Assembly: GCA_945957605.1 (NCBI GenBank)
Contig: CAMFLR010000005.1
Location: forward strand, 186,001 to 250,000
Reading direction: 5' to 3'
Origin: an uncultured Isosphaeraceae bacterium
GTDB lineage: Bacteria > Planctomycetota > Planctomycetia > Isosphaerales > Isosphaeraceae
Length of the DNA stretch: 64,000 nucleotides
Shown: piece by piece, positions 2,783 through 20,133 of the stretch
Layout of the letters: each line of letters opens with the position of its first letter
Position numbering within the stretch: position 1 is the stretch's first letter
Notes under the pieces: model-generated
What the model was told of the DNA's origin: nothing
What the model saw: only the letters and a program-made list of their open reading frames with translations
Database searches by the model: none
Position numbers and translations under genes: made by a program

Positions 2783-4324
2783 ATGCCGGAGCCCGCCGAT
2801 CCGCTCGGATCAGACTCAACTATTCGCGACGCTCTCGAGCGCTTCGAGGAAGCCCTCTGGCAAGGTGCGAAGCCCGAGATCGACGCCTTTCTCGCCGCGA
2901 CAAATACTCTGCACGCTGATCAATTGCGGCGTGACTTCACCGCCGATCTCGTCTTCGCCGAGTTCGAATATCGCCTCAAGTCAGGCGAACCCGCGCGTGT
3001 TGAGGAATATCTAGCGCGCTATCTCGACGCTTTCACGCACGAGAGTCTCATCGACCTGATCGTCACCGAATGGTCGATTCGGCGCCGCAACGAAGCGACG
3101 CCGCCCGCCGACTCCGAATATCAAACGCGATTTCCTCGCGAATATGACGTTTTCCTGCGCGCACGCGAGCGAAGGTCGGTCGTACCGTCACACGGTGTCG
3201 ACTCCTCATCCATGCCGATGACAGGGGCGATCCCAGCGCCTCGCAGTTTGCCATCGCTGTTCGGCCGTTTCGAGCTGCGCGAAGTGATTGGCGAAGGTGC
3301 GTTCGGCATCGTCTACCGCGCCTGGGATCCTTACGCGCGACAACATCTCGCTGTGAAGATTGCCCGCGAGCACGCGCGAGGCGAAACCGAAGGAGCACGC
3401 ACGTTTCTCCGCGAAGCGCGAATCGCCTCGCACCTGAAACATCCCAACATTGTTCGCGTGCTCGAAGCAGGAACCGAAGGCGACGACAACACGCCCTATC
3501 ACGTCGCCGACCTGATTGAAGGCCGAACCCTCGCCAACGCAATTGCCGACGGCCCCCTGCCATTTGCGACGTCCGCCCAGTTGATGGCGACGATCGCCGA
3601 CGCTCTCTCGTACGCTCACGAACACGAGCGGCACGTCGTGCATCGCGACCTGAAACCGTCGAACATTTTGCTCGACGCCAACGATAACCCTCACCTCACC
3701 GACTTCGGTTTCGCCCAGCGCGACGGCGGCGAGCTCTCGGCCGTGGTGCTGCCCAAAGGAAGCCGGTTCGGCACAATCGCCTATATGTCGCCCGAACAGG
3801 CCCGCGGCATCGAAACCCTCGCTCCCGCCAGCGACATCTTCTCTGCAGGAATCATCTTCTTCGAGATGCTCACCGGCGAGCTTCCGTTTCGTGGTCGCGA
3901 GCCGATGTTGCTGGCCCAAATCATCAGCGACGACCCGCCTTCGCCCCGTCGGCTCAACGACGCGATCCCATCCAAGCTCGAAGCGATTTGCCTCAAAATG
4001 CTGGCAAAACGCCCCGAAGATCGCCATGGGTCGGCCGCGCGACTGCGCGACGACCTCCGCGATTACCTCGATGAAGTTCCCACCGACGAAATCATCACGG
4101 AAGAAACGAACACCTGGACGAATTTCAGCAACGAAATCCAAGGTCGGCCGCTTCGTTCGCTGGCGATCGCCTATTTCGTTCTCTCCGGCCTCATTGCAAC
4201 GCCAATTTTAATGTTCAACTATTTCACAAGAACCCCACCCGCCGCCGCCATACCTGCAACGCCGATCCTTCGCAGCGAGCCGATCGACCCGGTCACCGGC
4301 GTGCCCAGGATTGTGCCGCGGTGA
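2783..4324 (+). CDS. Membrane-anchored Hanks-type Ser/Thr protein kinase
   Basis: A 513-residue protein. Residues 1-130 are the helical N-terminal segment common in planctomycete kinases. The catalytic domain spans about 161-430: glycine loop GEGAFGIVY (170-178), ATP-binding Lys192, C-helix Glu211, HRDLKPSN with catalytic Asp289, DFG at 307-309 and the MSPEQARG activation segment. All key residues are present, so it should be active. One membrane segment (about 460-480) leaves a short Pro-rich tail of about 33 residues outside, with no sensor domain visible. It follows the sigma factor by 18 bp. Its stop lies 1 bp from the stop of the convergent rarA gene, with no terminator between. Confidence 0.93.
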   Translation: MPEPADPLGSDSTIRDALERFEEALWQGAKPEIDAFLAATNTLHADQLRRDFTADLVFAEFEYRLKSGEPARVEEYLARYLDAFTHESLIDLIVTEWSIRRRNEATPPADSEYQTRFPREYDVFLRARERRSVVPSHGVDSSSMPMTGAIPAPRSLPSLFGRFELREVIGEGAFGIVYRAWDPYARQHLAVKIAREHARGETEGARTFLREARIASHLKHPNIVRVLEAGTEGDDNTPYHVADLIEGRTLANAIADGPLPFATSAQLMATIADALSYAHEHERHVVHRDLKPSNILLDANDNPHLTDFGFAQRDGGELSAVVLPKGSRFGTIAYMSPEQARGIETLAPASDIFSAGIIFFEMLTGELPFRGREPMLLAQIISDDPPSPRRLNDAIPSKLEAICLKMLAKRPEDRHGSAARLRDDLRDYLDEVPTDEIITEETNTWTNFSNEIQGRPLRSLAIAYFVLSGLIATPILMFNYFTRTPPAAAIPATPILRSEPIDPVTGVPRIVPR

Positions 4325-5663: not shown

Positions 5664-5950
5664 AATCGGAAAATCACACTCGCATGAAAAACTGGGTTGA
5701 TTGAAGCCGGTTGCTCTGGACGACCGTACATCAATTCGGCCTCCCAATCATAACACCGCCGCGCCCCTTTCTCCAACCGTTCAACCACATCTAAATCCGC
5801 ATAATTCTCGCTCGACACCTGTCGGATCAGACCATTGACGAAGGAATTCGGCGCGGCTATTCTCCGGATTGTTTTTGTGTTTGTCGATGCGTGCCCAGGG
5901 ACGCAAAGCTCGGAAGCGGCTGAACCCACACGGCGGGGGAAGAGCGAGCC
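5664..5950. promoter_or_regulatory. Divergent promoter region between rarA and the giant TPR gene
   Basis: This 287-bp spacer must carry promoters for both genes. It includes T-rich sequence at about 5868-5886 and, just before the giant gene, GGGACGCAAAGC (5898-5909), which recalls the conserved core of class I cyclic-di-GMP (GEMM) riboswitches. The rest of the GEMM fold is not convincingly present, so riboswitch function is only a possibility. GGGGGAAGAG at about 5936-5944 is the likely ribosome-binding site for ATG 5951. Confidence 0.4.
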
Positions 5951-8900
5951 ATGCAAGTGCATCGTAATTTTATGTTTGCGTGTTTGAATGGCGTTTTTGT
6001 CGCGATGCTTGCCCTCGCGCCAACCTGGGCTCAGGATGCCGATTCCGACGGCGGAAACGACTCTGCCGAACGAAAAACGATGGAACGGTTTCAAACCGTA
6101 CTCGAACGTAACCCCAGACGCGGCACCGCGCTCGACCGCGTATACGGTTATCACGTCGAACACGGCACGCTCGATAGCCTCGTAAAACGGTATGACGATC
6201 GTATCAAAGCCGATAAATCCGATGGCGCAGCCTGGCTGCTGCTCGGGCTCGTCGAAGCTCAGCGCGGGAAAGATGCCGCAGCAGTCACCGCCTTTCGCGA
6301 AGCCGAAAAGACGCGTGCCAACGACTCGCTTGCATCGTTCTATCTGGGGCAGGCGCTCGTGCTCGTCGGCCAGCCCGATCAGGCCGTCGATGCATTTGAA
6401 CGTGCCTTGACCAAGAAGCCGATTCGGGCCGATTTGCTCGAAGTCTACCAGGCGCTGGGACGAGTCCACCAACGCGCCCGCCGCGCCGAAAAAGCGCTCG
6501 CCGTCTGGACGAGGCTTGAAGCGGCATTCCCCGATGACACGCGCGTCCGCGAGCAAATCGCCGCCGCGCTCGCCGAGGAAGATCAACCGGCTCAGGCGCT
6601 TGCACGTTACCAGACGTTGATTACTGATGTTCGCGACGAGTATCGCAAGGTACAACTCGCGATGGACGCGGCCGAGCTGAAGGTGCGGCTTGGCAAGGCG
6701 CCCGAAGCGCTCGAAGACTTCGGCAAGTTGCTGGGCAAGCTCAATCCCGACTCGTGGATGTTCAAGGAAGTGCGCAGGAAGATCGAGGAAGTGTTCCTGC
6801 GGAACGACGACCTCATCGGCCTCGCCAAGTATTACGAAGGCTGGATCGTCAAGACGCCGGACGACGTCGAGGCAATGGCACGGCTGGGCCGAACCTATGC
6901 CCAGCTCGGCCGGGCAGCTGATGCGCGAAGTTGGCTCGACAAGGCCGTGAAGCTCGCACCGACGCGCCGTGACCTCCGCATGACGCTCATCGAACAGCTC
7001 GTGCAGGAAAAGAAGATCGACGACGCCGCGGCCGAGTACGAGAAACTCGCCAAGACTGACCCCGGCAATCCCGACATCATTCGCGAGTGGGGCAAGCTGC
7101 TGTTGCGCGACGGCTCGAAGCCGATCGACCAGCGCAAGGCCGCCGCGGCCGCCGTGTGGAAACGGCTCGCGGGTGATGACGTGAAAGACGCCGTCACAAT
7201 CGCGCAGGCCGCCGACCTCTTTCGTCAGGCCGAAATGGTCGACGACGCGATCGCGCTCTACAAGCGGGCCATCGCCCTCGCGCCCGATTCAGCGCAGTAC
7301 CGCGAATATCTCGGCGAATACTACCACCAGCTCAAGCGCAGGGACGACGCTCTGGCCACCTGGCGCACCGGCGTTGGCAAAACAGCCGCCGAGCTGGGAC
7401 GGCTCGGCGAGGTGCTCGCGGGCTTCGGCTATCGCCAGGAGGCCCTCGACCCGCTCTTGCAAGCGGTGAAGCTCGCCCCCGATGATTTCGACCTCAGGCT
7501 CAAACTCGCCGATCTTTATCTGCAGCTCGATCGTCCCAAAGACGCACTCCCCGAAGTGATGGCCGCGCGCAAGGCGTCGTCCGGGCCCGAGCAGGCGGAA
7601 GCGGTACTTGGCCGCGAGATCAAGACGTACCAGGCGAGCAAAACGCTTGGTGACGAGATCGCCAAGCTTCAGGCCGATCTCAACGCGGGCAAAGACGCAA
7701 CCGGCGAGCGCTGGTCGCGGCTGGCGAGTTTCTATGAGGCCGACGGTAAGACGAACGAGGCAATCGTCGCTGCAACCAGCGCGACGAAGGCCGACCCGAA
7801 GTCGATTCCGTCTTGGGTTGCACTCGCGCGGTTGCAGGAAGGCTCGGGCAACCTCGGCGGCGCGGTCGATGCGAATCACACGCTCGCAGGACTCGATCGT
7901 CGTGCGCGTGCCGACTATCTCTCCGCCATCGCGCGACTTGAATCGCGGCTCGGGCGCAAAGCCGAGGCGCTGAAGGCCGGTCGCGACTTGCTCGCTGCCG
8001 CACCCGGGAATTCGGACCGACTCCAGGAATTCGCCGACCTTTGCTTCAGCCTCGGTGAAAACGACGAAGGTCTTGAAACCCTCCGGCGCTCGGCGCGAAG
8101 CAACCCGACCGACCCCAAGGCCACAACCACCCTCGCCGAAGCCCTCGCCCGCCAGTTCCGCACCGAAGAGGCAATCGAGCTCTTCTGGCGCTCGTTTGAT
8201 CGCACGAAGGAACTCGATGCCAAGCTCGGCATCGTCTCGCGTCTGACCGACCAGTACCTCCAACGCAACCAGTTCGATCGTCTGATCGCCCGGCTCGAAC
8301 GTGAGCTGCGCGAGCCCGATCGCAAGCGCGAGCTGACAATCTGTCTCGCACAGGCGTATCAAGCGGCGGGCGACCTCGGTGCGGCTCGTCAGCAACTTGA
8401 ATCGCTGCTCACAGCGAATCCGCGCGACGCGGCGCTTCTCTTCCAGCTCGCCCAACTCGCCGAAACCGAGGGGGATGTCGCATCCGCCGCGCGCTACCAA
8501 CGCCAGGCGGTTGATATTGCTCCGACTCCCGAAGCTACAGTCAAACTGGCACAATTGTTCATGCGTGCGGGAGAGATCAGCGAGGCCGAAGTGGTCTGGT
8601 CGAAGCTCGCGACGAATGATCAGGAGGCGGCTCGAGCCATCACCGCCATCGATAGCTTGCTCACCAACTCGAAGTACGACACGGTTGTCAGTCTCACGGA
8701 GCGGATGCTGCTCAAGAATCCCAAGGATTGGGAGGTGCTCTACCGCGAGGGCTTTGCGCTTCAAAACAAGGGAAAAATGCCCGAAGCGTTGAAGAGATTC
8801 CAGGCGATTCTCGACCTGAACGGAAACGACGACGACCTCTCCGCACTCATGAAGGCGAGGCGTAAGAATCCGTCGGGCACGTCCGGTGCCCAGGCGGGTG

Positions 8901-11900
8901 TGGTTGCCAGCCGGAACACCTCGCCATACGTGTTCCCGGCCTACACTCGCATCAACAGCGCACAGCAGCTTCGCTCGGTCGTTGGGCTCGATAACCGCTA
9001 CTACTTTGGCACCAACTACATCTGGTCCCCGACCGATTTCGGCTCGGCTCGCGAAGGCGCGATCGCCTGGCTTTACGCCGAGTCTCAAAAGGACAAGAAC
9101 GATTCCGAAGCGTGGACCAAAGCCCGGCGCGCGGTGATCGATTCGGGCAAGGCCGATAAACGCACGCTTTGGGACTGGTACTACCTCCAACTGATTCGCA
9201 ACGACAACAAGGAAATCTTCAAGGCATCAGCCAGTCTCGTCCGGGCCGACGGCGGCGACACTGCCGCGCTCATGGCATTCCTCACTGCGACCGCAAACCG
9301 CGGCGTCGATGCTTCCCAAATGTACGTCCGCAGCACGACCAACGCCAAAACCGATACAACGCCCCCGCTTCCTCCCGCCGATCTCCAACTCGTGCTCGAT
9401 GCGTTTGACTCCCTCAAGAAGCGCCGCCCCGATCTGCTCTTGCCTAACTTCGTGACGACCGTCAACACCGAACTAAAGCGTGCCAAGCGCGAGAACGATG
9501 TGGCTGCCTTCTACAAGGCTGCGATGGCCAGTGCGAACACGCTCGAAACCGTGAGCTCGGCGCTCGACTACGCAGCCGATCAGGGAAGCCTCGACGATCT
9601 CTTCTCCCTCGCCGACAAGTACGAGCGATTGCAACTCGCCAATCCTCGGGGGAATCTTTCGAACCGCCCGTTAGCGCAAGGCCTCGCCACTTCATTCGGC
9701 CGGGCGATGGGAGTGAAGGCCGACACAAAGGATCACGCTGCGATCCTGAAAATCCTCGACCATTACCTTGCGTCGTCCTGGAAGCCCGACCAGATGGCGG
9801 CGAGGCAGAAGTCGTCGACGTCTTCGATGGTGCGCGGTCAGGCTGCGTATTTTTACGTGTACATGACCAAGCCCTCGCCGACGCAGAACACACGCTACAC
9901 CCAGGTCGATTTCCCAAGTCCCAACGCCTATTTCGACCTTGGAGCGATCCAGCTGCTCCGCAATACCTACGAAATCTTCAAGCGCGACGACGTTGTGAGC
10001 GATCTGATGAATCGCTTCCGCAGCGATATCACCAAGGCGCCCGCAAACGCGAAGATCTTCCCCACGCTCGCGCTCACCTATCTCCTTTGGTGGAATGACG
10101 AGAAGGAAGAATCGCTCCGCGAATTCGGGCGCGGGTGCGACCTGGTCAAGAACGACATCGACCTCCGGCTCAACTTCGCCGAGATGCGTGCCCAGCGCGG
10201 CGAAGCGGCGGAGGCACTCGAGACCGTCGATCAGGTCGAACCGCTCGACCAGAAAACGATGCAGCGTCGTGAAACCCTGGCGCTCCGGCTGTCGGTTCTG
10301 TCGGGCGATATCCAGCGCGCCCGCAAGGCGGCCGAGCGGCTATTCGGTCTCCGGCTCGATAGTGACACGCAAATCCAGCTTGCCGGCCAGATGAACCAGC
10401 TCGGCATGCACGACCTTTCCGAAGCCGTGATGGCTCGCGCCCGGCGGTCGGCGGGCGGCAACAGCACCGTGCTTGTCAACTTGATGAACCAGTACCAGAG
10501 CCAGGGTAAGGCAGATATCGCGGTGCAGGTTGCCAACCAGATCATGCGCCAGACGAGCGGTTCGCGCAATGCTCAGCCGGGTTCGGTCACGGTCAACGAT
10601 CAGGCCCGCATGGCAGCCGTCCAGCTCTTCTCACGCTCGGGCAAGCTCAAGGATCTCATCGCCCGCGCCGAAGCACAGCTTGAATCATCGCCGAACTCGC
10701 CGGCCTTGCTGCAAACGCTCGTCGACTACTACCAGGCCGATCAACAGCGCGACAAGGTCAAGGCAACCTACGCGCGGCTCGCCAAGCTCAAGGCCGAAGA
10801 TCCGCGTGCACTCTTCCAGATCGCCATCGACCTTTCCCGCGCAGGCGCCTCGAACGAAGCACTCGAGCTCTACCGCACTTCGCTCAAGAAAGATCCATCG
10901 CTCTTCGCCAACCAGTATTACGAAGTGCAGCGAGCCTTCCAGCAGGCCGGCAAGACTGACGAACTGATAAAGCTTTACGACTCGATGGACTTCAAAACCT
11001 TCCGCAACAACCCGTACGTGATTCAAAACACGATCAACGAGTTGATGCAGAACGAAAAAACGCGCGATCAGGCAATGGTTCTCTTCCGCAAGGCCTGGAA
11101 AGAACTGCCGCAGGTGCGCACTCAGCTCATCGGCAACCTCTATAACGATGAATTCTGGAAAGTCGCGGAAATCTTCGACTACGCCCGCGAAGCCGTCATC
11201 CCCAAGCCTGGCGCAGCGATCAACGATGCCTGGGCCGGCCTTGAGGAGATCGACTCCTACGGCGGCGACGGCACGGTGAACGGCGTGCTCACGCGCCTCT
11301 TCCAGGCGGCCGAGCGGCAGAACAAGCTCGACACGCTCGTCAAGGAAGTCGATGCGGCGTTGGCACGCACACCCGAGTGGACGGGCGGCCGTGCGCTTTC
11401 CGCGATACTCAAGGCGAAGCGCGGTCAAGTTCAGGAAGCACATAAAGACTTTGAAGCACTGCTTTCGTCCGGCAAGGAAATCCCTTCGAGCGCGCGCATG
11501 CTCGTCAGCCAGGAACTGGGCAAGATCGCCTCGCTCAAGGATATCGAGCTGAAGCTGCTCGAAGAGGGTGCGCTCGATAACGAGATGGCACGCAATAACG
11601 GCTTCCAGTATGGACCGGGGCGGCGGCTCGTCACGCTCTATCAGAAGAATGGCCGCGTCAATGACGCCCGCGACCTGTTGATGAAATACGCTGCAAATCG
11701 CGGCAATTTTGATGGATACGACCCGTCGTATGCCGCATACCGGCGCATTCAGGATGGGATGACGGTTGCTCAGCTCCTCAACGAACTGGGTTATCCGGCC
11801 GAAGCTGCGCGGTTCTACAACGATCTCGCGAACGATCCCGATTCGATCACGAACGCCCGCCAGTATTACGGCAACTCTGACCAGATCCTGCTGCAGGTTC

Positions 11901-14900
11901 GCCGGGGAATGGAGCAGTCGCTGGGTCAGATGAACGCGCAAACCGCCGAGCGCACCGTTCGCACGCTGCTCACGCCACGCCCGAATCGTAAGGAAACCGA
12001 TCTGGTTCTTGACCTCGTGGTACTGTGTCACCCGCGCGAGATCGACAAGACGGGCATGCTCTGCGTGTTTGCGGAAGCGGTCAATCCCAAGACGGCAACT
12101 TCCGCGATTCGCACCGAGGCGAAGGAACTGCTCGCGAAGCTCGAAAAGGCACATCCCACCGATCTTTCGGTCCTCACCGCGCTGGCGATTCTGGCCGGAC
12201 AGGAATCGAAACCCGATGACTTGGCTGCCGTCGCCGCGAAGTTGGCGAAGTTCGTCGAGACACATCCACTCGACGCACTTCCCGCCAGCGGACGGCCCAA
12301 CGGTCGCCAGCGCCAAGAAGCCGAACAACAGCTCATGCTCTGGGTGGCAGCGCGGCTTTGCCTGGCGCACGACGCCACGCGCAGTAATGGCGAGATCCTG
12401 ACCGCTCGCGTACTTGAAGCCGCGCGCCGTCAGAGCGACTCGCGCTGGTCGCTCGCCATCCTTCGTGAGTCATCGCAGAACGCGTTCGATCGCGGCGACA
12501 AGAAGGCGGCGGAAGAAGCATGGCGGAACATGCTCCGCCTCGTGCTCGCCGCCCCAGTCCCCAAGAGTGCAAGCGGTACCGGCGGCACAACCGGGACCAT
12601 TTCGGTTCTGCCACGCACGGCGGTCGTTCAATCAAGCGGTCCCATTACGATGACCAAGGCGGCGGTCCGCCTCAATGCGGGTACCGCGTCAGACGCGATC
12701 GTTGTCACGCTCGAACGCTTCGAGCAGGTAGTGCAACTCGCCAAGCTTTTCGCCGCACACGACCAGACGGCACTCTCGGTCGACGCCGTGAAACAAGCGC
12801 TCGCGACGGGACCGCCCGTCACGCCGATGGTCGTGACCAACGCCAACCAGCGCGTGTATTCCTCTGGCAATATGAATCCCGCGGACGCGGCTGCCGCGCA
12901 AACGTCGCTACGGGTCGAGGAAAACCTTAACACGCTCGAACGCATTTGGACCCAGAAAAAGGCCGATCCCGCTGCCGTCTACGGGGTGCTGAAAGACGCG
13001 GTTTTCCCCGTCAGCAGGCCCAAGGAAATCTTCCTGTACACCAGACCGTCAAATCCCAATCAAGACAACATCCAACCGCTCCGTAGCGTTTCCACGCTCC
13101 TCGTGCGTTGGGCGAATCAGGCGAACAAGGCGGAAGATCTTCGCCAGACAATCGCGGCCCGTGAAAAGCAGCCGCTCGCACAGGCACCCGCGAAGGTACT
13201 CCGCGGCCAGCTTGAATTCGCACTCAAGAATTACCCCGCCACGAATGCAGTCCTCGACGAAATCCGCCAGGGAACGTCGAAAGACGGCCTGAACGTGTCG
13301 AGCGAAATGACGTTCCTCATCGCGCTTCCCACGCTTGACGTCAAGGAAACGGCCGATGCGTCGGCGAAGCTTTTTGAATCGGCGCTCGGTCGATTGAATG
13401 CTCCTGGAAACAGCGATGAAACCGGCGCGAACTTCCAAATGCGGCTCGCCCGGCACTATTTCGACGTGGATCGCCCCGCCGACGCGAAACGACTTCTCTT
13501 GGCGTATCTTACGCGTATTCAGGAAGCATATTCGCGCTACTCTGGCGATTACATCTTCTATCGCCGAAAGCTCGGCCTGGGGAACGTCGCGACCGAGTTC
13601 GCGCTTCACGGCCAGCTTGCCGATGCGCTCGACATGCTCGGCCAGTACGAAGACTTGCCGCTCTCTGCCAATTATGGACTCATGTCCAACGGCCGAGCCG
13701 TCCGCGCCGTTCTCGATCTGCTCGACGCATTGCCCGTCGCCGAGCGGTACAAGATCGTCAAAACGTGGATGCTACCGTCCGAGAATCGTCGATCGGTGCG
13801 CTGGGAGGTGACGCTGGTCAACGCGAACGTCGGCAACCAGGGGAATACGGCAGCGAACGGCAAGCATGGCGAACGCGGTCTGTACGCGATGTCGACCGTT
13901 CTCATCGACGCTGCGAAGGAACTCAAACAGCTCGATGCGCTGGCGCATGAGGTTCGTCCACTCGTTGAGAAGAAGGTCGAACATGCCGACGACCTGATGA
14001 ATCAGATCGAAATCGTCCGGGGCAATACCAAGGATGCGGTAGCCGTTCTAAACGCGCGATCCATCGAACTCAAAAAGCCAGCAGTGCCCGACCAGTATCG
14101 TGGGATGCCGCAGGTATCGCTCACCGATTATCTGCTCTTGCGCCACAGTTTCGATTCGACCGACCCCGCGCTTAACGCCGCGGCCGAAGCGATGTGGCCG
14201 AACCTGATGGCACGTGCGCAATCCGCTCAGAACTATCAGTTGATCGGCGATTTGCGGCGCGACCTTGCGTACTTCACCACGAAGCGCGCAGGCAAGCTCG
14301 ACCTCGCGCTTGCGGGCGATCCAGAATTGCCGCTCTGGCATCCTCGCGCCAGCAACCTCTTTAGCGGAAACGAGGGTCCGGGATCTCGCGCCATCTGGGC
14401 CGAATCGAACGGAATCGTCGCGCACGTGGCGGGACAGGGCGAAGACTTTTTCATGTTCCGCTACCCGCTCATCGGCACATTCGAGATCTCGATCGATGCC
14501 TACAACGGCGGCCATTCCGAAGGGCAAATTGGCTATTCCGGACTCATAAGCGAACCCAGCAATTTCGGGAACAACAGCACAATCCACACCGTCGGCCAGG
14601 ACGATAGAGTGCAGCTCCCCGCGCCCGCCATTAGGGGCGAGTCATTCAACCAGATGAAGATTCGCGTCGAGCCGGGCAAGGTCAGCTACTTCAATAACGG
14701 CCATCTCTTCTACGAAGACAAAACACCCGCAATCACCAGCCCGTGGCTATTCCTCCGCTCCTCACGCGAACGTGCTCCCGCGTTCCGCAACGCCGTCATC
14801 ACGGGCCAGCCGCAAATCCCTCGCGAGGTGGCGCTGGTGCAAGGAGATCGGCTCGATGGATGGGTCACCGGCAATATGCTCGGCGGCCAGTTGGCTCCAC

Positions 14901-17383
14901 GTCGGCGTCCTGAAGAACTGGTTTCCCGGCAGGCGATGAACTTGGGGATCATGGATATCACTCCGCCGAAGCCAAGCTGGTCGGCGCACGACGGCGAGCT
15001 CGTCGGCATTCGTGAACCGCAGCCAGGCGTCGATAATCCGCCGGCGAATCGGATCGTCTACACGCGGCCGCTCGAATCCGGCGACGAACTCTCGTATGAG
15101 TTCTTCTACAAGCCGAGCGAGACGATGGTCCATCCCACGCTCGGCGGTTTCGCCTTCGTGATCGAGCCCGCTGGCCTGAAGTTGCGACCCCTCCGGTCGA
15201 CGAATGATGAATACTACAACTATAATCCGAATGTGAATGCCCCCAAGCCTCCGAAGCCCGATCAGACCGACGCTGCAGGCAAGCGCGGCGAGATCGCACT
15301 GAAGGCCGATGCGTGGAACCAGGCATCGCTGCGAGTCACCGGCAAAACGCTGGCGATCACGCTCAACGGCACCAAAATCTACGAGCGTGAGATCGACCCG
15401 GAAGACAGCGACTTCGGCTTCTATCACAAACTGCCCGAAGGCAACGCCCGGCTCCGCAAGATCGTCCTCAAGGGGGACTGGCCCGCCGCACTCAAGCCCG
15501 AGCAAATGGCGAATCTGTTCCAGCGCGACCCCGCCAAACCGCGCGACCGCGCCACGCTCGCCGCTTCAGCAGTGCTCGTCTCCGAGAAGTACCTCGTTCT
15601 CGAAGGCTCTGAACTGATCGAACGCACCCGCAAGCTGCCCGCCGCGCAGCGGTACGACCAACTCCTTGCGTGGGTTCTACCCAACGTCGATCACACCACG
15701 CTGCGGCTGGTCTCGCGTTACGGTCAAACGGCGCTACCGAACGAAGGCACGCTCGAATCACCGGCCATCGCGCTCGTGGCCGCGGCGAAGGAAGCGAACA
15801 AGCTCGATGCACTCGCCTCACTCGTCACGGAAACCAAGGTCATCAACGACCTCGACCGTCGTGGCCGGCTCGCGCTCCTGGCGATGATCCGTCACGCGCA
15901 GAACAACGTCCCCGAAGCCGGCAAACTTCTGGGCGAGTTGAAAACGCTCGCCGAGAAAGCGATCGTTAAAGAAACGCCAGACGCCGAACGCTGGCCCGAA
16001 CTGGTCGTTGCAACGGCGCTCCTTTCCGAAACCAGGCTGAACGGCGAGGTTTTCGCGCTGCTCGATATGCTCGTGAACCAAATCCAGCAAACGCAGTACT
16101 GGAGCGATCTGGAGCGACACGTCCGTGTGGTTCACGGCCGCGCGAAGCTTGCGAAACTGGCGCAGTCCAATCCCGGACCCATTCCGGGCTGGATTCCGGC
16201 CGTGGTCGACAATTGCGAGAAAAATGGCCTCGGTTACCCCGCGCCGGTCTGGACGTACAAAAACGGCGAGTGGACGCATTACCCGGGCCACGATCACGAC
16301 TTCCTCTTCCTCAATACGCCGCTGCTCGGCGATTTCGAGGTCACCTGCGACCTGAGCTCGTTCGGCTGGCGCGAGGCGCGAATCTCGTACGGCGGGCTGA
16401 CAATCGGCCTGCTCTACACGGCCAAGGGCTACGAGATTCTCCACTACGGGTATTCGATTGCGCTCAACGGCGTCATCGACCCGCCGCTCGCCGACGTGAA
16501 GGACTTCTACTCCTTCAAGCTCGTGGTGAAGGGGAACCTTGCGACCGTGTACATGAGCGGGCGAAAGATTCACGAACAGGCTGTCTCGCGCGAGCAAAGC
16601 CCGTGGCTGGCCCTTTATGCACTTTCGCAATCGACCGCGACGTTCCGCAACCTCAAGATCAGCGGCAAGCCGGTGGTCCCCGCGGTGATTTCGCTTTCTG
16701 GTACGTCGGATCTCAATGGCTGGCTCGGTAACTACTACGGCGAGCCGGTCGAAGGGGAAGCAGCCTACTGGCAGAAGCGCGGCGAGGAAATCATCGGCCG
16801 GCGGCTCGATCCCAAGATGGATCTGTCGCAGCGAAACAATCGATCCGGTCAACCTGCGCGTATGCATCCCGAGGCAATCGCCGGTAGCAAGATTGAAACC
16901 TTGCTGCGCTACGCGCGGCCGCTCGCCGAGGATTGCGAGGTCGAATACGAATTCTATTACGACGGCTCAGGTACGCAGGTCGCACCCGCGCTTGGCCGGA
17001 CCGCTTTCCTTATCGAGCCCGACGGATTGACGCTGCACCGGATCACCGAGGGCAAATTCGAGCGTTCAGGTCTCGATCCGGCGAATGCAACGCCGGTTGC
17101 GGCCGATCGCCGGGGTCCGCTGGCTCTCAAGCCGAAGGCGTGGAATAAGATCAAGCTCGCGACGAAGGGAGACCGCGTGACGATCACCCTGAACGACGCG
17201 GCGATTCATGAACATCAGATCAAGCCGGGCGATACACGCGAGTTCGGATTCTTCCATTACGCGGACGAATCCGAGGCGCGGGTACGCAATGTCCGGCTCA
17301 CGGGTATGTGGCCGAAAGCTGTTGCTCGGGAACTGATGGAAACGCAGCAAACCGCGCTGGCGCCGGCGGCAGCAAAGCCCTGA
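5951..17383 (+). CDS. Giant secreted TPR protein with duplicated DUF1583-like C-terminal modules
   Basis: An uninterrupted frame of 3810 residues. A signal peptide (hydrophobic core FACLNGVFVAMLALAP, cleavage near TWAQ) sends it to the periplasm or beyond. Residues from about 40 to at least 1000 are dense TPR repeats (for example WLLLGLVEAQRGKDAAAVTA); helical repeat sequence continues to about 2790. Two beta-rich modules follow, about 2794-3180 and 3411-3793, with matching landmarks (SPWLFLRS/SPWLALYA, FVIEPAGLKL/FLIEPDGLTL, DFGFYHKL/EFGFFHYA). They resemble planctomycete DUF1583 and the concanavalin-like DUF1080 fold. The helical segment before each module is duplicated too (LPVAERYKIV/LPAAQRYDQL). 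No transmembrane anchor or enzymatic motif is seen. A protein-interaction scaffold with carbohydrate- or ligand-binding ends is inferred. Confidence 0.85.
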   Translation: MQVHRNFMFACLNGVFVAMLALAPTWAQDADSDGGNDSAERKTMERFQTVLERNPRRGTALDRVYGYHVEHGTLDSLVKRYDDRIKADKSDGAAWLLLGLVEAQRGKDAAAVTAFREAEKTRANDSLASFYLGQALVLVGQPDQAVDAFERALTKKPIRADLLEVYQALGRVHQRARRAEKALAVWTRLEAAFPDDTRVREQIAAALAEEDQPAQALARYQTLITDVRDEYRKVQLAMDAAELKVRLGKAPEALEDFGKLLGKLNPDSWMFKEVRRKIEEVFLRNDDLIGLAKYYEGWIVKTPDDVEAMARLGRTYAQLGRAADARSWLDKAVKLAPTRRDLRMTLIEQLVQEKKIDDAAAEYEKLAKTDPGNPDIIREWGKLLLRDGSKPIDQRKAAAAAVWKRLAGDDVKDAVTIAQAADLFRQAEMVDDAIALYKRAIALAPDSAQYREYLGEYYHQLKRRDDALATWRTGVGKTAAELGRLGEVLAGFGYRQEALDPLLQAVKLAPDDFDLRLKLADLYLQLDRPKDALPEVMAARKASSGPEQAEAVLGREIKTYQASKTLGDEIAKLQADLNAGKDATGERWSRLASFYEADGKTNEAIVAATSATKADPKSIPSWVALARLQEGSGNLGGAVDANHTLAGLDRRARADYLSAIARLESRLGRKAEALKAGRDLLAAAPGNSDRLQEFADLCFSLGENDEGLETLRRSARSNPTDPKATTTLAEALARQFRTEEAIELFWRSFDRTKELDAKLGIVSRLTDQYLQRNQFDRLIARLERELREPDRKRELTICLAQAYQAAGDLGAARQQLESLLTANPRDAALLFQLAQLAETEGDVASAARYQRQAVDIAPTPEATVKLAQLFMRAGEISEAEVVWSKLATNDQEAARAITAIDSLLTNSKYDTVVSLTERMLLKNPKDWEVLYREGFALQNKGKMPEALKRFQAILDLNGNDDDLSALMKARRKNPSGTSGAQAGVVASRNTSPYVFPAYTRINSAQQLRSVVGLDNRYYFGTNYIWSPTDFGSAREGAIAWLYAESQKDKNDSEAWTKARRAVIDSGKADKRTLWDWYYLQLIRNDNKEIFKASASLVRADGGDTAALMAFLTATANRGVDASQMYVRSTTNAKTDTTPPLPPADLQLVLDAFDSLKKRRPDLLLPNFVTTVNTELKRAKRENDVAAFYKAAMASANTLETVSSALDYAADQGSLDDLFSLADKYERLQLANPRGNLSNRPLAQGLATSFGRAMGVKADTKDHAAILKILDHYLASSWKPDQMAARQKSSTSSMVRGQAAYFYVYMTKPSPTQNTRYTQVDFPSPNAYFDLGAIQLLRNTYEIFKRDDVVSDLMNRFRSDITKAPANAKIFPTLALTYLLWWNDEKEESLREFGRGCDLVKNDIDLRLNFAEMRAQRGEAAEALETVDQVEPLDQKTMQRRETLALRLSVLSGDIQRARKAAERLFGLRLDSDTQIQLAGQMNQLGMHDLSEAVMARARRSAGGNSTVLVNLMNQYQSQGKADIAVQVANQIMRQTSGSRNAQPGSVTVNDQARMAAVQLFSRSGKLKDLIARAEAQLESSPNSPALLQTLVDYYQADQQRDKVKATYARLAKLKAEDPRALFQIAIDLSRAGASNEALELYRTSLKKDPSLFANQYYEVQRAFQQAGKTDELIKLYDSMDFKTFRNNPYVIQNTINELMQNEKTRDQAMVLFRKAWKELPQVRTQLIGNLYNDEFWKVAEIFDYAREAVIPKPGAAINDAWAGLEEIDSYGGDGTVNGVLTRLFQAAERQNKLDTLVKEVDAALARTPEWTGGRALSAILKAKRGQVQEAHKDFEALLSSGKEIPSSARMLVSQELGKIASLKDIELKLLEEGALDNEMARNNGFQYGPGRRLVTLYQKNGRVNDARDLLMKYAANRGNFDGYDPSYAAYRRIQDGMTVAQLLNELGYPAEAARFYNDLANDPDSITNARQYYGNSDQILLQVRRGMEQSLGQMNAQTAERTVRTLLTPRPNRKETDLVLDLVVLCHPREIDKTGMLCVFAEAVNPKTATSAIRTEAKELLAKLEKAHPTDLSVLTALAILAGQESKPDDLAAVAAKLAKFVETHPLDALPASGRPNGRQRQEAEQQLMLWVAARLCLAHDATRSNGEILTARVLEAARRQSDSRWSLAILRESSQNAFDRGDKKAAEEAWRNMLRLVLAAPVPKSASGTGGTTGTISVLPRTAVVQSSGPITMTKAAVRLNAGTASDAIVVTLERFEQVVQLAKLFAAHDQTALSVDAVKQALATGPPVTPMVVTNANQRVYSSGNMNPADAAAAQTSLRVEENLNTLERIWTQKKADPAAVYGVLKDAVFPVSRPKEIFLYTRPSNPNQDNIQPLRSVSTLLVRWANQANKAEDLRQTIAAREKQPLAQAPAKVLRGQLEFALKNYPATNAVLDEIRQGTSKDGLNVSSEMTFLIALPTLDVKETADASAKLFESALGRLNAPGNSDETGANFQMRLARHYFDVDRPADAKRLLLAYLTRIQEAYSRYSGDYIFYRRKLGLGNVATEFALHGQLADALDMLGQYEDLPLSANYGLMSNGRAVRAVLDLLDALPVAERYKIVKTWMLPSENRRSVRWEVTLVNANVGNQGNTAANGKHGERGLYAMSTVLIDAAKELKQLDALAHEVRPLVEKKVEHADDLMNQIEIVRGNTKDAVAVLNARSIELKKPAVPDQYRGMPQVSLTDYLLLRHSFDSTDPALNAAAEAMWPNLMARAQSAQNYQLIGDLRRDLAYFTTKRAGKLDLALAGDPELPLWHPRASNLFSGNEGPGSRAIWAESNGIVAHVAGQGEDFFMFRYPLIGTFEISIDAYNGGHSEGQIGYSGLISEPSNFGNNSTIHTVGQDDRVQLPAPAIRGESFNQMKIRVEPGKVSYFNNGHLFYEDKTPAITSPWLFLRSSRERAPAFRNAVITGQPQIPREVALVQGDRLDGWVTGNMLGGQLAPRRRPEELVSRQAMNLGIMDITPPKPSWSAHDGELVGIREPQPGVDNPPANRIVYTRPLESGDELSYEFFYKPSETMVHPTLGGFAFVIEPAGLKLRPLRSTNDEYYNYNPNVNAPKPPKPDQTDAAGKRGEIALKADAWNQASLRVTGKTLAITLNGTKIYEREIDPEDSDFGFYHKLPEGNARLRKIVLKGDWPAALKPEQMANLFQRDPAKPRDRATLAASAVLVSEKYLVLEGSELIERTRKLPAAQRYDQLLAWVLPNVDHTTLRLVSRYGQTALPNEGTLESPAIALVAAAKEANKLDALASLVTETKVINDLDRRGRLALLAMIRHAQNNVPEAGKLLGELKTLAEKAIVKETPDAERWPELVVATALLSETRLNGEVFALLDMLVNQIQQTQYWSDLERHVRVVHGRAKLAKLAQSNPGPIPGWIPAVVDNCEKNGLGYPAPVWTYKNGEWTHYPGHDHDFLFLNTPLLGDFEVTCDLSSFGWREARISYGGLTIGLLYTAKGYEILHYGYSIALNGVIDPPLADVKDFYSFKLVVKGNLATVYMSGRKIHEQAVSREQSPWLALYALSQSTATFRNLKISGKPVVPAVISLSGTSDLNGWLGNYYGEPVEGEAAYWQKRGEEIIGRRLDPKMDLSQRNNRSGQPARMHPEAIAGSKIETLLRYARPLAEDCEVEYEFYYDGSGTQVAPALGRTAFLIEPDGLTLHRITEGKFERSGLDPANATPVAADRRGPLALKPKAWNKIKLATKGDRVTITLNDAAIHEHQIKPGDTREFGFFHYADESEARVRNVRLTGMWPKAVARELMETQQTALAPAAAKP

Positions 17384-17852: not shown

Positions 17853-18767
17853 ATGCCGGCAGTTCAGATCCAGAGTGTGACCAAGACATTTGGATCGCAC
17901 CTCGCTGTTGACGACCTCACCCTCAGCGTTCCCGAGGGGTCGATTTACGGTTTCATCGGCCCCAACGGCTCGGGAAAGACGACGACGTTGCGCATGATCA
18001 TGCGCATCTTTCATCCCGACCGCGGCGAGATCGAGGTGCTGGGTGAGCGCGCCATGACCGCGGCCTGCGAACGCGTCGGCTACCTGCCCGAAGAGCGCGG
18101 GCTGTACAAACAGATGCGCGTTTACGAGCTGCTCAAGTTCTACGCTCAGCTCAAAGGGATGAAGGAACCGCGCGACGGCATCGAACGCTGGCTCAACGTG
18201 ATGGGCCTTTCCACCTGGGCGAATCAGAAGATCAGCGCACTCTCAAAAGGGATGGCGCAAAAAATCCAGTTCATCGCCACGGTCGTCGCCGAACCCGCGC
18301 TCGTTTTGCTCGACGAACCTTTCAGCGGGCTCGACCCCGTCAACGCCGTCGGCCTCCGCGAGGCCGTGCTCAGCCTGAGACGCTCGGGCACGACCGTCAT
18401 TTTCTCGACGCACGACATGAGTACCGCCGAGAAGATGTGCGACTCGATCTTCATGATCTACAAAGGAAAGAAAGTGCTCGACGGCACGCTCGAGCAAATT
18501 CAGGACGCCTACGGCGAAGACACAATTCGCATCCGCATGGGTGGCGACGTCCCCGTCAATTTCGAGGACATCCCCGGCGTTCACACCGTTGCCGAATTCG
18601 GCCGTTACGTCGAGCTGAGACTCCACCCCGGCGCCGATTCTCAGCACATTCTGTCGGCGATCATGGAGCACGGCGAAGTCCGGCACTTCGAGCTTTCCCG
18701 CCCATCGCTGGGCGACATTTTCGTCCGGATCGCCGGCCCCGGAGCGCGCGAGGTGACTTATGCGTAA
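17853..18767 (+). CDS. ABC transporter ATP-binding protein (NatA-like)
   Basis: A 304-residue ATPase subunit. Walker A GPNGSGKTT starts at residue 36 (Lys42), the signature is LSKGMAQ (130-136, a conservative variant of LSGGQ) and Walker B is VLLDEPFSGLDP with Asp154/Glu155, followed by an H-loop in FSTHDMSTAE. The extra 80-residue C-terminal domain is typical of the NatA/CcmA-type exporter subfamily. It overlaps the permease gene by 8 bp, so the two are translationally coupled. Substrate unknown; Na+ or drug export is the family default. Confidence 0.92.
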   Translation: MPAVQIQSVTKTFGSHLAVDDLTLSVPEGSIYGFIGPNGSGKTTTLRMIMRIFHPDRGEIEVLGERAMTAACERVGYLPEERGLYKQMRVYELLKFYAQLKGMKEPRDGIERWLNVMGLSTWANQKISALSKGMAQKIQFIATVVAEPALVLLDEPFSGLDPVNAVGLREAVLSLRRSGTTVIFSTHDMSTAEKMCDSIFMIYKGKKVLDGTLEQIQDAYGEDTIRIRMGGDVPVNFEDIPGVHTVAEFGRYVELRLHPGADSQHILSAIMEHGEVRHFELSRPSLGDIFVRIAGPGAREVTYA

Positions 18768-20133
18768 AGTGCTCATCATCGCCGCGCGCGAATACAAAAC
18801 GGCCGTGCGCTCGAAAGCATTTTTGATCAGCCTGCTCTGCATGCCGCTCCTGATGTTCGGCGGCATCTTCGTGCAGACTTTGCTCAAAGATCACATCGAC
18901 ACCAGCGACAAGATCTTCCTGATAGTTGATCGCACACCAGGCGCCAAGCTTTTGCCGCAAGTGAAAGTGCTCGCCGAGCTACGAAACAAGACCGCCATTT
19001 TCGACCCCGACACGAAGCGCAGGAATTCACCTCGGTTCATCATTGAAGGTGTCGAAGCCTCCGAGCCAACGCCCGACGCGATTGCCAAGCAGCGATTCGA
19101 ACTGTCGCAACGCGTGAAGGCCAAGAAAGCGGTTGGCTTCGCCGAGATCGGCCCCGAAATCGTCAAGCCACCGCTCGGCTCACTCCCGCCCCTCGACGCC
19201 AAGGGCCGTTCCGCCTCAAACGCCGACGACCGCGTCTCGCTGCGCTATCAAACGAACTCTCCGCTCGAGAATGATTTCTCGCAGTGGATCGAAGTTACCG
19301 TCAACGCTTGCGTGATGAAGCAGCGAGCGTCCGACAAAGGCTTGTCGATGCTTGCCGTCGGTGAGGTGCTACGTCCCGTCCCTTTCCTGACGAAAAAGCT
19401 CACAACCCGCGACGCCAAGGGGCAGATTCACGACGCCGAGGACGAAAGCCGGGGCGCATCGCTGATCGTCCCGCTTGGCCTGTCCGTGATGATGATGTTC
19501 ATGACGCTCGTCGGCACATCTCCGCTCTTGCAAAGCGTGTTCGAGGAAAAAACCGCTCGCATTGCCGAGGTATTGCTCAGCTCGGCTCGCCCGTTCGAAT
19601 TGATGATGGGCAAGCTAATCGGCGCAGTCAGCGTCTCATTAACAACTGCCGCGATTTACCTGACCGCGTCGTACTTCATGGCCGCGCGTTACGGGTTTAA
19701 TGAACAGCTCAGTCCGGCCCTGCTTGTCTGGTTCATCCTGTTCCAGATCCTGGGAGTTCTGATTTACGGCTCACTCTACATCGCCATCGGCGCAGCTTGC
19801 TCCGACATCCGCGAAACGCAAACGATGGTCATGCCGGTGATGCTCGTCGGCACCATGCCGATGTTCGCGCTCATGAACGCGATCATGAACCCGACGGGCG
19901 TGCTTGCGGTTGCCCTCTCGTTCTTCCCGTTCGCCACGCCGATGTTCATGCTCGTCCGGCAGACGGTTCCTCCCGGTTGCCCGCTCTGGCAACTGCTCCT
20001 GTCGATCGCTCTCATGCTCGCGACGACCACCGCCTGTGTTTACGCAGCGGGGCGGATCTTCCGCGTCGGCATGCTAATGCAAGGAAAAGGTGCGAATTTC
20101 GCGCAAATGGCTCGCTGGGTTATTCGCGGCTGA
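18760..20133 (+). CDS. ABC-2 type permease (NatB-like)
   Basis: A 457-residue membrane subunit paired with the preceding ATPase. One N-terminal membrane helix (AFLISLLCMPLLMFGGIFV) is followed by a large external domain (about 45-225) and then five or six helices (about 232-445), the ABC2_membrane_3 layout. The motif FEEKTARIAEVLLSSARPFELMMGKL after the first helix of the bundle is typical of the family. Its start overlaps the end of the ATPase gene. Confidence 0.9.
   Translation: MRKVLIIAAREYKTAVRSKAFLISLLCMPLLMFGGIFVQTLLKDHIDTSDKIFLIVDRTPGAKLLPQVKVLAELRNKTAIFDPDTKRRNSPRFIIEGVEASEPTPDAIAKQRFELSQRVKAKKAVGFAEIGPEIVKPPLGSLPPLDAKGRSASNADDRVSLRYQTNSPLENDFSQWIEVTVNACVMKQRASDKGLSMLAVGEVLRPVPFLTKKLTTRDAKGQIHDAEDESRGASLIVPLGLSVMMMFMTLVGTSPLLQSVFEEKTARIAEVLLSSARPFELMMGKLIGAVSVSLTTAAIYLTASYFMAARYGFNEQLSPALLVWFILFQILGVLIYGSLYIAIGAACSDIRETQTMVMPVMLVGTMPMFALMNAIMNPTGVLAVALSFFPFATPMFMLVRQTVPPGCPLWQLLLSIALMLATTTACVYAAGRIFRVGMLMQGKGANFAQMARWVIRG

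Follow-up and report, generated by a model that had tools for sequence, protein, structure and literature searches.

A 3810-residue exported TPR protein of Planctomycetia as a candidate periplasmic partner of a membrane MoxR-VWA system

What might a planctomycete do with a single gene of 11.4 kb whose product is exported and unanchored, and with which other proteins would that product work? The question is raised by a locus of an uncultured Isosphaeraceae bacterium, analysed here as a stretch of 64,000 nucleotides (the window), in which positions 5951..17383 of the plus strand encode an exported protein of 3810 aa with TPRs and DUF1581/DUF1583 domains, hereafter the giant. Its frame starts with ATG and stays open for 3,810 codons, the longest stop-free runs in the other frames over 5951-17383 are only 147-645 codons, and the GC content by codon position is uniform from one end of the gene to the other; the unbroken gene of the preliminary description was therefore borne out, with the same coordinates. 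A signal peptide is predicted at residues ~1-28 (5951..6034, plus strand), where a single hydrophobic segment (residues 7-25) is followed by TWAQ|D. Nothing beyond residues 7-25 reaches transmembrane (TM) hydrophobicity, in agreement with the export signal without a membrane anchor proposed earlier, and an N-terminal hydrophobic segment is also present in 47 of the 48 giants whose N-terminus was available.

A sequencing or assembly error joining two genes had been named as a possible undoing of this picture, and the halves do occur as separate adjacent genes in three families (f10, f102 and f103). However, the fused frame recurs independently in dozens of genomes, some of them assembled as a single contig (Limnoglobus roseus, L100; G266, G410 and G526), and the coding signal runs uniformly along the gene. 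Because unbroken homologues with the same domain order exist in so many independent genomes, we regard an artefactual join as excluded and its probability as negligible.

Taken from its sequence and predicted structure, the giant is a signal peptide followed by a solenoid of ~2,700 residues (~60-2790) and two double-sandwich modules. Pfam recognizes the N-terminal TPR superhelix (residues ~60-970; 6128..8860, plus strand) through TPR_14, TPR_19 and other TPR families, with up to 10 stretches each. The middle solenoid (residues 960-2010; 8828..11980, plus strand) is mostly unseen by Pfam; AlphaFold2, with models built from alignments of 51 relatives, predicted a continuous solenoid of helix pairs (pLDDT 86, pTM 0.78), and the Foldseek matches to this model include the TPR superhelices Ctr9, Ski3 and OGT. 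Within this region, the segment ~1400-1500 is highly conserved in the alignment of giants. The late solenoid (residues 2005-2790; 11963..14320, plus strand) matched no Pfam family and was modelled as helix pairs, followed by two beta-sandwiches (pLDDT 85, pTM 0.81). The Pfam repeats, the AlphaFold2 and Foldseek results and the late helix pairs together place the solenoid in the TPR superfamily. The preliminary description noticed the repeat, but its minimum of 1000 TPR residues, with more helical repeat beyond, understated the extent.

The same description missed four beta-sandwich domains in the C-terminal third, which make up two DUF1581+DUF1583_N modules. According to AlphaFold2 and Pfam, module 1 (14336..15487, plus strand) consists of two sandwiches, at residues 2796-2974 (DUF1581) and 3010-3179 (DUF1583_N). 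A linker that is probably helical, defined with the profile linkC (residues ~3190-3395; 15518..16135, plus strand), connects it to module 2 (residues ~3405-3800; 16163..17350, plus strand), where Pfam places DUF1581 at 3525-3599 and DUF1583_N at 3644-3789; having the same two Pfam domains, module 2 presumably folds like module 1. The two copies of DUF1583_N (PF20407; 94 and 182 bits) and of DUF1581 (PF07619; 55 and 67 bits) all exceed the curated cut-offs, making the modules members of these Pfam families. Their duplication is visible by profiles only, as self-BLAST of the giant returned no internal repeats at 1e-3. No paper on DUF1581 or DUF1583 turned up in the literature searched.

In the predicted structure, the structural relatives of the module 1 sandwiches are 3-keto-glycoside hydratases, CBM66 and the lectin domain of galactocerebrosidase (VIA-align Z 12-14 over ~145-165 residues, mostly at 2.6-3.7 A), and galectin-like and LNS/LamG folds were also matched. 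The giant thus shares a beta-sandwich with the 3-keto-disaccharide hydrolase/DUF1080 fold and with CBM66, but at a sequence identity of only 9-21%. The 3-keto-disaccharide hydrolase family PF06439 scored 28-38 bits against a cut-off of 26.8, in an alignment limited to the last third of the profile, and a C-terminal profile gave borderline matches (E 0.03-0.09) to putative glycosyl hydrolases among sequences of solved structures. On these models, the modules may be described as concanavalin/CBM66-like, that is, as putatively sugar-binding-like.

Unbroken giants of 3,250-4,520 aa with the same domain order occur in dozens of Planctomycetia genomes, so that the conservation across planctomycetes anticipated in the preliminary description was found in many independent genomes. 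Searches with DUF1583_N led to frames of 3.3-4.3 kaa carrying two copies in several families and, in an alignment of nineteen giants or fragments, the others were 27-44% identical to the window protein. A profile of the middle region (A1, residues 1380-1960), used as the marker for the giant, detected it in 91 of the 398 Planctomycetia genomes searched; a phylum-wide sample of 294 genomes yielded 12 positives, all from within the class. Named carriers include Limnoglobus roseus, Schlesneria, Alienimonas chondri, Rhodopirellula and Stieleria species, and Isosphaeraceae MAGs.

Four architectures were seen across these relatives. The most frequent is a fused form that carries both modules (48 tree rows, one of them the window protein), and a fused form with one module is found in Rhodopirellula, Stieleria and others. 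The split form of f10, f102 and f103 consists of adjacent secreted genes for a TPR protein of 2,236-2,296 aa and a module protein of 1,045-1,099 aa, one pair overlapping by 4 bp (ATGA); Fuerstiella, some Schlesneria and others carry TPR-only genes (2.0-2.35 kaa), and one genome (G244) has a TPR-only gene and a module protein on separate contigs. In the unrooted tree, a single clade (100/100) holds the split rows, next to the Pirellulaceae rows with one module. Because three families have two adjacent secreted genes, the giant corresponds, judged by sequence comparison, to two proteins that were either fused or split apart, an order of events that we do not read from an unrooted tree. Split homologues, which were expected to speak against the architecture as a whole, are therefore real, both in these three families and in the TPR-only lineages, and one polypeptide is the commonest state but not the sole one.

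Copy number also varies. Some genomes (loci L058/L059 of G016, and L198, G266:C1:970000-985000) have two to three giants, or a giant and a 2.2 kaa TPR-only paralogue distant from the MoxR cluster described below. Exported DUF1581/DUF1583 proteins of ~900-1,600 aa are encoded in tandem, by two to five genes per array, at three further loci (L194, G258:C1:3168000-3187999; L195; L196), a lineage-specific expansion without the solenoid; the L194 and L196 arrays lie near sigma-factor-like genes.

The distribution and position of the giant in other genomes point to its partners. Ten of the loci inspected first have it beside genes for MoxR, a DUF58 protein and a BatA-type VWA protein, which belong to a five-gene cluster with the order MoxR-DUF58-VWA(BatA)-VWA/GATase1-p505. 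Across the 398 Planctomycetia genomes, the giant is present in 91 and the cluster-type DUF58 protein, delimited by a gap in profile scores (>400 bits versus <294 bits), in 94, with both in 87 (Fisher 9e-74, with the species tree not modelled). By genus, 42 have the giant and 44 the DUF58 protein; 41 have both, leaving one and three unshared (4e-37). At least 11 genera vary internally, and in a hand count among the members listed, presence and absence of the two agree in all 11; the giant-free genomes examined have at most a DUF58 paralogue that is more distant. Exceptions run both ways, with the giant marker lacking the cluster DUF58 in four genomes, mostly fragmented drafts (G001, G626, G667 and G694), and the DUF58 lacking the marker in seven (G029, G483, G529, G535, G691, G696 and G723). 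In G483, a divergent 1,841 aa TPR protein that scores under the giant profile cut adjoins the MoxR gene (L187:7896-13421).

Eight families contribute 37 genomes in which no more than 12 kb separates the giant from the cluster-type DUF58 gene; the two are nearly always divergent (G410 and G464 are co-directional exceptions), and the distance from the giant to MoxR is most often 50-450 bp. In several genomes of families f2 and f5, p505 immediately follows the giant and not the MoxR operon; the set therefore stays together while its order varies. Distances in the giant middle region correlate with those of DUF58, MoxR and VWA1 (Mantel r 0.81, 0.74 and 0.72 over 28 genomes), values reached by 0 of 2,000 within-family permutations, which do not remove the species tree within families. 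In the window genome, the full cluster is on another contig (G000:C6:4808-12824), so that the shared context sought earlier exists as adjacency in many relatives, whereas the window genome itself lacks it.

This separation bears on the reading that the giant is independent of the cluster, and that the two merely share a mobile or lost-together gene island without a common function. Distribution is patchy inside genera, and adjacency would make joint gain or loss passive. However, co-occurrence holds where giant and cluster are far apart, as in the window genome and, at a distance of 1.5 Mb, in G304, and p505 switches sides yet remains in the set; we consider a passive island improbable. The partnership of giant and cluster is strongly supported by co-occurrence and adjacency: for the many binding partners suggested in the preliminary description, one specific candidate set, the MoxR-DUF58-VWA cluster, is strongly indicated.

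The immediate neighbours in the window were also considered as partners (the ABC-2 transporter, an ECF sigma/kinase and MgsA) and rejected, since the ABC pair alone recurs, in a single same-genus genome. An intergenic region (5748..5950) separates the giant from MgsA/RarA on the minus strand. Downstream on the plus strand (17853..20133) lie the ABC-2 ATPase (17853-18767) and permease (18760-20133), a GldA/DrrA-like pair conserved downstream of the giant in genome G001 (L067) and probably incidental.

In the window genome, the cluster MoxR protein matches AAA_3 (215 bits) and AAA_lid_2, and the DUF58 protein matches its Pfam family with 145.6 bits. VWA1 is of the BatA type, with the BatA N-terminal domain (38.5 bits), VWA_2, a DNSAS MIDAS motif and TM segments at 6-24, 58-76 and 601-619; the motif lies between the second and third TMs, and a positive loop follows the first. 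The VWA/GATase1-like protein (VWA2) and p505 both combine TM segments with large soluble parts. A conserved cluster member, p505/p495 (L078:4808-6325 in G000:C6; L068:1936-3423) has three TMs and a Glu/Lys-rich helical part, and it has no Pfam or NCBIfam match. Because of the TM positions and the positive-inside rule, the VWA domains of both membrane proteins are predicted to lie on the periplasmic side, the expected location of the giant.

The closest parallel is with the Bat systems (MoxR, DUF58, BatA/BatB VWA proteins, BatD and TPR proteins), for which a periplasmic complex of VWA and TPR proteins has been proposed (PMC3557215; PMC5700661). Common to both are a MoxR AAA+ ATPase, a DUF58 protein, a BatA-type VWA membrane protein with a MIDAS motif, and an exported TPR partner, which is encoded with MoxR in relatives and unlinked in the window genome. 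In contrast to the small TPR proteins of Bat systems, the TPR partner here has 2,000-4,500 aa and lectin-like modules; the cluster adds a VWA/GATase1-like protein and p505, and the giant is usually divergent from the MoxR operon and not within it. We do not file the system as a Bat member, because none of the five proteins of the window genome cluster matches BatD.

Two other MoxR systems invite comparison. To our knowledge, no giant TPR protein accompanies the MoxR-led operon RL3499-RL3502 of Rhizobium leguminosarum. Its RL3499 is reported to affect membrane integrity and morphology (PMC3893208). The MoxR-vWA ternary conflict systems (Kaur et al. 2020, PMC7159879) likewise combine MoxR, a VWA co-chaperone and a large third component, and they occur in planctomycetes; the cluster MoxR also weakly passes the Pfam bpMoxR cut-off. 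An immunity system with the giant as third component is nevertheless very improbable: here that component is an exported TPR protein, the VWA proteins are membrane-bound, the architecture is conserved with no swapping of effectors, and Pfam reported neither a VMAP/iSTAND/FtsH-type third component nor an effector domain, whether for the cluster proteins or for the giant. PADLOC gave nothing beyond generic AAA similarity, and a defence system was rejected.

The linkage, the VWA topology and the MoxR/Bat literature are most simply read as pointing to a machine of the Bat kind whose TPR scaffold is unusually large. By analogy with the Bat systems of Bacteroides and Leptospira, we propose, with a probability of roughly 0.6, that the giant serves as a periplasmic scaffold or client of a membrane MoxR-VWA system. 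The secreted scaffold of the preliminary description fits this proposal in so far as the protein has a signal peptide, no anchor and a TPR-type solenoid ~2,700 residues long. Both membrane VWA proteins would bind this solenoid through the MIDAS sites of their VWA domains, the lectin-like modules might hold an envelope polysaccharide or glycoprotein, MoxR and DUF58 would drive assembly or remodelling of the complex from the cytoplasm, as proposed for Bat and MoxR-VWA chaperone systems, and envelope integrity could be the output. Against this role count the lack of linkage between giant and cluster in the window genome and in Alienimonas, the genomes named above that have one marker but not the other, and the deletion of bat in Leptospira, which gave no phenotype (PMC3557215).

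The lectin-like modules also allow a different emphasis, in which the giant is a surface or extracellular protein for glycan binding or cell-cell adhesion, the solenoid is a spacer and the MoxR cluster only a dedicated chaperone for its maturation or export. A VWA cofactor generally accompanies MoxR proteins, which are chaperone-like and help dedicated complexes to mature (PMC3893208); the matches of the sandwiches to CBM66, 3-keto-glycoside hydratases, galectin-like and LNS/LamG folds would suit an adhesin, as would the free-standing exported DUF1581/DUF1583 proteins of the solenoid-free arrays. In Fuerstiella, however, it is the TPR part that adjoins MoxR, in a gene without the DUF1583 module, and because the TPR-only gene stays beside MoxR in such lineages, the linked partner is the solenoid and not the lectin part. 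We therefore consider adhesion unlikely, though the most credible of the alternatives. The scaffold or client role extends to a fuller picture, which we offer tentatively: a Planctomycetia-specific envelope machine in which a cytoplasmic MoxR-DUF58 motor would act through membrane VWA proteins on a fibre-like periplasmic TPR giant whose lectin-like modules anchor envelope glycans, the giant itself having arisen when two secreted proteins fused and the lectin module was duplicated.

Members of the DUF1581/DUF1583_N families exist as free-standing proteins, whereas here they are fused to a very long TPR solenoid with a link to MoxR, and this partnership gives a family of unknown function its first testable role. 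Three unknowns, namely the giant, which is among the largest planctomycete proteins, p505 and DUF1583, become parts of one system. If the proposed role is true, MoxR-VWA systems, whose function has long been open, would gain a candidate dedicated periplasmic partner.
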